From Candidatus Terasakiella magnetica (GTDB taxonomy: Bacteria; Pseudomonadota; Alphaproteobacteria; Rhodospirillales; Terasakiellaceae), in the NCBI RefSeq assembly GCF_900093605.1, contig NZ_FLYE01000048.1:1-64000 (forward strand): 64,000 bases of DNA, given 5' to 3'. The notes under the pieces are model-generated. The model made no database searches and was not told the DNA's origin. It saw nothing but the letters and a program-made list of their open reading frames with translations. Below, piece after piece: positions 15,197 through 16,919 of this stretch (position 1 is the stretch's first letter; each line of letters opens with the position of its first letter). Made by a program: the position numbers and the translations under genes.

Positions 15197-15709
15197 TTAC
15201 TTAAAGAGCGCGCGTGTCACAACACCGACAAACTTGGTAAATGCTTCAGAATCTGCCGTGACGTCTTTATGGACCCAGCCAGAAATATCACGATACACAT
15301 CATCACCTACACAAAAAACAGCTGAGAATGTTGGCTTCTCGCTCGGCACTGATTCGGGGATTTCCCCTTTACAAAGGCGATTGGTGTTAAAGTTCTTAGG
15401 TGGTGCGATCAGCCAAAAGACCCGATAAGAAGGCGACTCAGCCTCACTAATATCCATGGTCGTTTTAAACGGGCGGCTTTGCATGCCACGTTCCATCCCG
15501 GCTGTAATCACCCCACTAACCGCATCAGCTTCAAATCCGGGGTAGGAACCGCGCACATCCACCAACAAAGGCCCACGCGATGTGGCACTGAAGAAATAGC
15601 TTTGAGTGCTTTCGCGGGCGGAAAACATTTCCACATGACCATAAGGTGCGTCCTGACCGCAAGCAGCCACCCCCACCAATGATGCCAAGCCAGCCAATAG
15701 TTTCTTCAT
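15197..15709 (-). CDS. Putative lipoprotein of unknown function
   Basis: 170 residues starting MKKLLAGLASLVGVAACGQD: a short positively charged start, a hydrophobic core and a lipobox (VAAC) with the acylated Cys at residue 17, so probably membrane-anchored. Two further Cys (LCKGE and AVFCVGDD) could form a disulfide. I do not recognise a family. A weak possibility of a second small hydrophobic strand set is all that can be said about fold. It stands alone, divergent from the phoH leader. Confidence 0.75.
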   Translation of the reverse strand: MKKLLAGLASLVGVAACGQDAPYGHVEMFSARESTQSYFFSATSRGPLLVDVRGSYPGFEADAVSGVITAGMERGMQSRPFKTTMDISEAESPSYRVFWLIAPPKNFNTNRLCKGEIPESVPSEKPTFSAVFCVGDDVYRDISGWVHKDVTADSEAFTKFVGVVTRALFK

Positions 15710-15848
15710 GAGCGTGATCCTTCAGTGTTTAACGTCATTAGCTCTCATTTTAATCAATTTTTCTTACTTATCCAGCTAAATGAGCTCTACTACGAAAGAA
15801 TAAGTGACTCTATTTGTTATTGTTTTTTGACAGGTTAAAAAAAGACTA

Positions 15849-16075
15849 GGAAATTGCCGAGTCGCAAGCTAGAATTTCCAGATTAGAGCATGAATTTAAG
15901 GAGATGCACATGCACCTTCTCGGTCTGCATGGTACTGCAAATGCTGAAACCGCACCGCCTGATGGGCGCATGTGTTTCACGCCTTCGTCTCTAACCCTTC
16001 GTTTCATTCAAACCAATATTTTGATCAATATTTTGATGATGTGTCTGCCTCCACTGCCCTGTGGGGGCATTTTTT
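15849..16075 (+). ncRNA. Candidate structured leader RNA (or sRNA) ahead of the phoH-like gene
   Basis: The 396-base gap before phoH contains a hairpin GGAAATT/AATTTCC (15849-15855 with 15873-15879), then a possible three-way junction. Its P1 is CACATGC (15907-15913) with GCATGTG (15968-15974); P2 is CGGT/ACCG (15921-15924, 15949-15952) extended by GCAT/ATGC (15927-15930, 15941-15944); P3 is GCC/GGC (15957-15959, 15965-15967). A 12-base direct repeat CAATATTTTGAT follows (16014-16037), then an intrinsic terminator (16046-16075). This is the layout of a transcriptional riboswitch or attenuator. It could instead be an independent small RNA ending at the terminator. No known Rfam class was recognised. 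Nothing else is seen in 15710-15848 beyond AT-rich sequence with a TTGACA at about 15828. Confidence 0.45.
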
Positions 16076-16113
16076 ATGGCACATCCCCTAAAATAGGAGA
16101 GGTCTATGGGTAA
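15910..16113 (+). CDS. Possible upstream ORF in the phoH leader
   Basis: A 67-codon frame with an AAGGAG ribosome site 6 bases before its ATG and a stop 8 bases inside phoH. It begins MHLLGLHGTANAET. The start codon lies in the 5' arm of the predicted P1 helix, and the frame runs through the intrinsic terminator, so ribosomes on it could affect both structures. The peptide resembles nothing I know; the second half (LINILMMCLPPLPC) is hydrophobic. It may be a leader peptide or chance. Confidence 0.35.
   Translation: MHLLGLHGTANAETAPPDGRMCFTPSSLTLRFIQTNILINILMMCLPPLPCGGIFYGTSPKIGEVYG
16046..16075 (+). terminator. Intrinsic terminator 30 bases before the phoH-like gene
   Basis: TGCCTCCAC (16046-16054) pairs with GTGGGGGCA (16061-16069) with one G-T wobble, loop of 6, then six T. 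It stands between any promoter in the leader and phoH, so it must be bypassed for phoH to be read from there. Confidence 0.8.
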
Positions 16114-16885
16114 GCGCGCACGTAAATCTACAAAAGCCGATGCAGATGTCAGAGCATTGTTTTTTGATGAACACCAACGTGAACAGGAAATGAGTAAAAA
16201 AGCTTGGGACCCTATAAAAGGGCATCATAACCAGCAACATCAAGAAACCCCGCGTGAACAGAAATACGTCAAAAATGTACGCCCCAGAAGCGACAATCAG
16301 GCCGAACTGATGAAAGCTATTGATGAGCGCCATATGGTGGTTGCCCTTGGCCCAGCTGGCACAGGCAAAACCTACCTCGCCGTCGCCAAAGCTGTTGAGG
16401 CCTTAGATAGCGGCAAGATCGAGCGCATTGTTTTATCGCGCCCTGCTGTTGAGGCAGGCGAAAGCATTGGCTATCTGCCCGGTGATATGGAAGAAAAACT
16501 CGCCCCTTACCTGCGCCCGCTTTATGATGCGCTCACCGACCGCCTTGGCAATCGCCGCCTCAAACAGCTCATGAACAATGGCACTATTGAGCTTGCGCCA
16601 GTGGGCTATATGCGCGGACGTACCCTTAACAATGCCTTTGTGGTCATTGATGAAGCGCAAAACTGCACCTATACCCAGATCAAAATGCTCATCACCCGCT
16701 TGGGATGGAATTCCACCATGGTGCTCACAGGCGATCCCGATCAAAGCGACCTGCTGCCCGGTATTTCTGGCCTAAAAGATATCGCAGATAAACTGGAAAC
16801 CCTAGAAGACGTCGCCACCGTGCGCCTCAAAGACCGCGACATCGTGCGCCACCCGCTGGTCGCCAGCATCCTCACCGTTGTGTAA
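16106..16885 (+). CDS. PhoH-family ATPase
   Basis: 259 residues. A basic, Lys-rich N-terminal 60 residues lead into a P-loop domain with Walker A GPAGTGKT (82-89), SRPAVEAGE and Walker B VVIDEAQN, then TGDPDQ (sensor). This is the single-domain PhoH type, lacking the N-terminal KH-like region of the PhoH usually paired with ybeY, and no ybeY is adjacent. PhoH proteins are RNA-linked ATPases of unclear role, phosphate-regulated in E. coli. AGGAGAGG precedes the ATG. A terminator follows. Expression is probably controlled by the structured leader. Confidence 0.92.
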   Translation: MGKRARKSTKADADVRALFFDEHQREQEMSKKAWDPIKGHHNQQHQETPREQKYVKNVRPRSDNQAELMKAIDERHMVVALGPAGTGKTYLAVAKAVEALDSGKIERIVLSRPAVEAGESIGYLPGDMEEKLAPYLRPLYDALTDRLGNRRLKQLMNNGTIELAPVGYMRGRTLNNAFVVIDEAQNCTYTQIKMLITRLGWNSTMVLTGDPDQSDLLPGISGLKDIADKLETLEDVATVRLKDRDIVRHPLVASILTVV

Positions 16886-16894
16886 ACCAACTGC

Positions 16895-16919
16895 GCCCCT
16901 GCTCAGGCAGGGGCCTTTT
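16895..16919 (+). terminator. Intrinsic terminator after phoH
   Basis: GCCCCTGC (16895-16902) pairs with GCAGGGGC (16907-16914) around a TCAG loop, followed by CTTTTC. Confidence 0.88.

Follow-up and report, generated by a model that had tools for sequence, protein, structure and literature searches.

The window analysed here is a stretch of 64,000 nucleotides that forms part of contig C47 in the 3.68 Mb genome of a Terasakiella species (Rhodospirillales) with T. pusilla and T. brassicae among its close relatives. It contains a gene for a PhoH-family ATPase of 259 amino acids (phoH, 16106-16885, + strand), and the family identity proposed in the initial annotation was confirmed by profile matching (PF02562, E 7.7e-82; PRK10536-like). 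The phoH ribosome site, AGGAGAGG (16095-16102, +), was assigned from sequence, and its AGGAGAG portion is identical in 6/6 Terasakiella species. A phoH paralogue is found on contig C5 of the same genome, which also encodes EF-P (PF09285 match above the cut-off). A second intrinsic terminator follows directly 3' of phoH (16895-16914), suggesting a single-gene transcription unit for phoH.

The leader that precedes phoH was compared in an alignment of six Terasakiella species. A promoter-like block (TTTTTTGAC(A)) and a second block reading CGANTCGCA-N-GTTAGANT are kept. Of a leader open reading frame, the ribosome site with the start (GGAGATGCA..ATGCA) and a short internal CCGCC stretch are conserved, and further downstream so are an intrinsic terminator and the ribosome site of phoH. 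The start of the upstream ORF (15197-15709) is also visible in the alignment; since this ORF is divergent, the terminator in the phoH leader cannot belong to it. The first block corresponds to a putative promoter -35 element, TTTTTTGACA (15823-15832, +), in which TTTTTTGAC is identical in 6/6 species, with a weak -10-like stretch on its 3' side at around 15847-15855. This putative promoter was not listed by a consensus scan. The second block, CGANTCGCA-N-GTTAGANT(C) (15858-15876, +), is kept in the genus and lies near the presumed transcription start. Two structures previously suggested for this part of the leader were not kept across the six species. The arms of a 5' hairpin (15849-15879), which begins inside the putative promoter -10 region, are not maintained in the relatives, and a function for it was not borne out. 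A 7-bp helix (15907-15913/15968-15974) is indeed perfect in the window, but only 40.5% of its cells pair in the genus, with no compensatory change, and the possible three-way junction suggested to be closed by it is not conserved. The leader ORF has its ribosome site within a small hairpin (GGAGAUGCA..UGCACCUUCUC; 15899-15920, +; -6.3 to -8.1 kcal/mol) that is near-invariant in the genus and may possibly control translation of the ORF. This hairpin displays no covariation across the six species, and because it is nearly invariant, covariation cannot test it. The near-invariance includes the third bases of two Leu codons.

The leader ORF consists of 67 codons followed by TAA (15910-16113, +), is preceded by a GGAG ribosome site (15900-15903) and is open in 6/6 Terasakiella species. 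A small ORF with a good ribosome site had been noted here before, and it is real; however, the relatives conserve the second ATG (15910), not the first (15904), as its start, because an extra base in two relatives places the first ATG out of frame. After crossing the terminator (16046-16075), the ORF extends 8 nt into phoH before it stops (ATGGGTAA). Its stop is at the same place in 5/6 species, where the TAA lies within ATGGGTAA or ATGGCTAA at the phoH start; the exception is T. brassicae, where the ORF stops 9 nt before phoH. The distances from ORF start to phoH start in five species (184, 184, 187, 187 and 196 nt) share one phase, and the remaining two frames contain about 11 and 9 stops over the same stretch. 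Codons 2-17 have a pN/pS of 0.61 in the coding frame, compared to 0.90 and 1.63 in the other frames, whilst the middle and the terminator/C-terminal codons show no amino-acid constraint (pN/pS about 1.0). Constraint on the N-terminal codons, and not on the other frames, was also found in each lineage tested separately, using protein-guided alignments that lean somewhat to the coding frame. The Terasakiella consensus peptide is approximately MHLLRLH..A.AETAPPx. It includes two adjacent prolines, encoded by CCG CCT in the window (codons 16-17, motif TAPPD; 15955-15960, +). A Pro-Pro pair is present in 6/6 species and in other lineages, and we presume it to be a slow step in translation. Three different codons are used for the second proline across the six species, and the conserved stretch of the ORF varies mainly at synonymous positions. 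The Pro-Pro pair lies 85 nt upstream of the terminator stem in the window, and about 70-120 nt upstream of the terminator generally. A tandem 12-nt duplication noted previously is present in frame at 16014-16037 (+); it is limited to this species, being absent from the five others, and lies outside the conserved device.

The strong intrinsic terminator that had been recognized before phoH was borne out. It is composed of a 9-bp stem (16046-16069, +) and a run of six T (16070-16075), with a folding energy of -16.8 kcal/mol (z -4.0), and the stem ends 36 nt upstream of phoH. The terminator is conserved in 5/6 Terasakiella species and is rebuilt with other bases in T. brassicae. The hairpin and T run are enclosed by an outer helix, with the 5' strand at 16038-16045 (+) and the 3' strand at 16078-16085 (+), which pairs in 6/6 species. 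Together, the terminator and enclosing helix are by far the strongest element of the leader (z -5.1). The pairing of the outer helix beats base-shuffled versions in every Terasakiella species (p 0 to 0.032 each). Since the MAFFT alignment was out of register and a slide of -2 was better, the register was set by hand; under this counting, which leans towards the helix, 95.8% of cells are paired and 3/8 pairs have changed on both sides, and the covariation score was matched by 2/500 shuffles. Beyond Terasakiella, the helix reached p <= 0.05 in 7% of 137 leaders, and five of the nine best are from Terasakiella, so we treat it as a genus-level feature and not a general one. The outer helix can form only after read-through, so its effect is presumably on the phoH mRNA, through coupling or stability, and not on termination. 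The initial annotation did not include this clamping helix, the Pro-Pro motif or the overlap of the ORF with phoH.

To place the leader in a broader context, we surveyed 220 non-redundant leaders of orthologous phoH genes from the Alphaproteobacteria. A terminator-like hairpin is present in the last 150 nt of 177 leaders, mostly 20-60 nt before phoH, compared with 5-15 in 20 dinucleotide shuffles; the other 43 leaders have none in that stretch. In 104 of the 149 leaders with a proximal terminator, an ORF preceded by a Shine-Dalgarno sequence runs through the terminator (shuffle mean 16.4). This ORF contains Pro-Pro upstream of the terminator in 86/149 leaders (shuffle mean 5.4), and 82/149 combine Pro-Pro with a stop within -15 to +14 of the phoH start (shuffle mean 4.4). 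Since shuffling also destroys real ribosome sites, Pro-Pro is better judged by the fraction of through-ORFs that contain it, which is 86/104 in the real leaders as opposed to roughly one third in shuffles. These counts come from related loci and do not represent independent events; independence comes instead from the separate lineages. The peptides differ between lineages whilst the proline motif is kept with synonymous codon changes (APPx, HETSPPP, FSPPG, LPPP and SEPPGRAR), and Pro-Pro constitutes the best-kept residues across separate lineages. A Magnetovibrio-like group has ..GHETSPPPL.., with varying synonymous codons at every position of E-T-S-P-P-P; one family (f29) has MPRxSVxxRxFSPPGSxMQ.. 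and one genus (g283) has ..LPPP... The Caulobacterales peptide, M..FRR..PP..SEPPGRAR.., comes from an alignment preselected for Pro-Pro ORFs that end at the phoH start, whereas the count over 149 leaders was made without such selection. Many leaders share overlap forms between the ORF stop and the phoH start, namely ATGGGTAA (+8), ATGA (+4) and TGATG (+1), and in family f29 the stop is mostly at -5 or +8. Several terminator-bearing families have no recognizable Pro-Pro ORF.

From this architecture, which is read from the sequence, we infer both that the leader regulates phoH and the direction in which it does so. We consider it somewhat probable that ribosomes control transcription attenuation in the leader in a pyrL-like manner, with coupling to the translation of phoH, and that Pro-Pro serves as an EF-P-sensitive speed bump. 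RNA polymerase would start near 15856 and a ribosome would load on the leader ORF. If Pro-Pro is passed quickly, with active EF-P and healthy translation, the ribosome would keep pace with the polymerase and cover the 5' arm of the terminator, so that no hairpin forms and transcription enters phoH; the ribosome would then stop on the phoH start, where it could restart. Should the ribosome be delayed at Pro-Pro or fail to load, the terminator would form, an RNA of about 200 nt would be released and phoH expression would be low. The attenuator reading is supported by the ORF through the terminator, its conserved stop overlap and N-terminal constraint, the Pro-Pro conservation, the terminator counts, the EF-P gene and the divergent neighbour. 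The initial annotation was right to see a regulatory leader before phoH, and of the three options that it offered, leader-peptide attenuation is well supported by the translated-looking, conserved ORF that crosses the terminator and overlaps phoH. Against it stand the unconstrained middle and C-terminal codons of the ORF, the lack of the layout in some lineages, the earlier ORF end in T. brassicae and the context dependence of the Pro-Pro stall, since APP stalled strongly in one reporter and weakly in another (PMC4176338). On the supporting side, built reporters with polyproline ahead of the pyrL terminator showed a 26-fold drop in expression when EF-P was missing, compared to less than 2-fold in the wild type (PMC5021804). 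A codon with G in the first position before Pro-Pro has been reported to favour arrest (PMC11611912). The residue before Pro-Pro is Ala in this leader and Glu in Caulobacter.

The main rival to the attenuator reading has the opposite direction. A ribosome stalled at Pro-Pro would allow an antiterminator to form, as in the trp/his or antibiotic-inducible types, and slow translation would raise phoH. The same parts would serve, namely a leader ORF, a terminator and particular codons in a set position, and induction by translation stress would make sense given that PhoH/YbeZ proteins are linked in published work to YbeY, ribosome quality control and stress (PMC5101352). However, neither the individual folds of the six Terasakiella leaders nor the consensus fold showed a common antiterminator pairing, although a lineage-specific one is possible, and the ORF continues through the terminator, which classical attenuators, ending before it, do not need. 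We regard this direction as less likely. Less probable still is that only translational coupling is at work, with the ORF and outer helix gating phoH translation and the hairpin acting as a weak or constitutive terminator without regulation. This would account for the conserved stop/start overlap and for the covarying helix just upstream of the phoH ribosome site in Terasakiella, but it leaves the Pro-Pro conservation without explanation, and the hairpin and T run are kept in most lineages at 20-60 nt before phoH. We find it improbable that a functional small protein or an sRNA acting in trans is the product of the leader and that phoH expression comes from read-through. A terminated RNA of about 200 nt is to be expected and, as the earlier sRNA suggestion implied, is probably made, though as a by-product; the weak Rfam sRNA resemblances cover the terminator only and are at chance level (E 2.5 and above). 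The peptides, however, differ between lineages except around Pro-Pro, the C-terminal half of the ORF is unconstrained, and there is neither a sign of trans action nor a second copy of the leader in the genome. The metabolite riboswitch of a new class that had also been suggested is very improbable, because, although the full-length leader has a more stable fold than its shuffled versions (z -2.8), an Rfam scan of the leader gave no match, the junction helix is not conserved and the conserved stretch varies in the manner of synonymous codons. No aptamer-like fold carrying covarying helices was found upstream of the terminator; the sole covarying helix found flanks the terminator, and neither this outer helix nor the ribosome-site hairpin looks like an aptamer.

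We compared the proposed attenuator with known systems. The E. coli pyrL/pyrBI leader likewise has an ORF that crosses an intrinsic terminator just before the gene. Regulation of the pyrL type works through UTP-sensitive polymerase pausing at a U-rich tract, and no such tract was noted in the phoH leader from the Pro-Pro codons to the terminator. The pyrL leader also differs in that the sequence and gene are unrelated, the conserved slow step of the phoH leader is the Pro-Pro pair, and the phoH leader ORF overlaps the gene start. Termination in pyrL is prevented when a ribosome follows the polymerase closely (PMC5021804). The polyproline-pyrL reporter of Elgamal et al. 2016 (PMC5021804) also has a polyproline stretch in an ORF that precedes an intrinsic terminator, but it carries an artificial PPPPPP in E. 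coli, whereas in the phoH leaders the PP or PPP is natural and has been maintained by selection across many species. The trp/his attenuators share a short translated leader, special codons and an intrinsic terminator before the gene. In contrast to these, the phoH leader has no codon run for a pathway amino acid and no antiterminator was found in it, and its ORF does not end before the terminator. The mgtL leader of Salmonella mgtA is distinct from the phoH leader in gene, sequence and clade, and to our knowledge it does not extend across an intrinsic terminator to reach mgtA. It is similar in having proline codons in a leader ORF, with EF-P-dependent translation controlling the downstream gene (PMC6460261, PMC11611912).

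Ribosome-mediated attenuation is a known class; the Pro-Pro version, the gene overlap and the wide occurrence before phoH appear to be new within the open-access literature searched, in which no description of a phoH leader of this type was found. We tentatively suggest that this alphaproteobacterial leader family relies natively on Pro-Pro pausing together with transcription-translation coupling to sense the speed of translation or the capacity of EF-P, and sets the level of the PhoH ATPase accordingly. As far as we know, polyproline-controlled intrinsic termination is known mainly from built reporters. If the suggestion is true, the leaders would be a natural case of it, a counterpart of the built polyproline-pyrL reporter that was retained as the remainder of the peptide diverged; they would link the PhoH ATPase to the translation state and provide a natural readout of EF-P activity. 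The layout also occurs in Caulobacter, a laboratory model, so direct testing is feasible there.

Two further observations were made in the surveyed leaders. The motif GATTCG, which is GANTC-like, occurs near the presumed phoH transcription start in 87/220 alphaproteobacterial leaders, compared with 23 in shuffles. In the window it falls within 15858-15876, and at loci L008, L071, L078 and others it is also found upstream of the leader. Control of phoH by CcrM (GANTC) methylation was considered, and no paper linking the two was found in the open-access literature searched; because the enrichment among GANTC forms is limited to GATTC, CcrM methylation is not favoured. Separately, genomes of family f29 contain a cobalamin riboswitch downstream of phoH (L014, 2339-2565; L192, 2396-2620).
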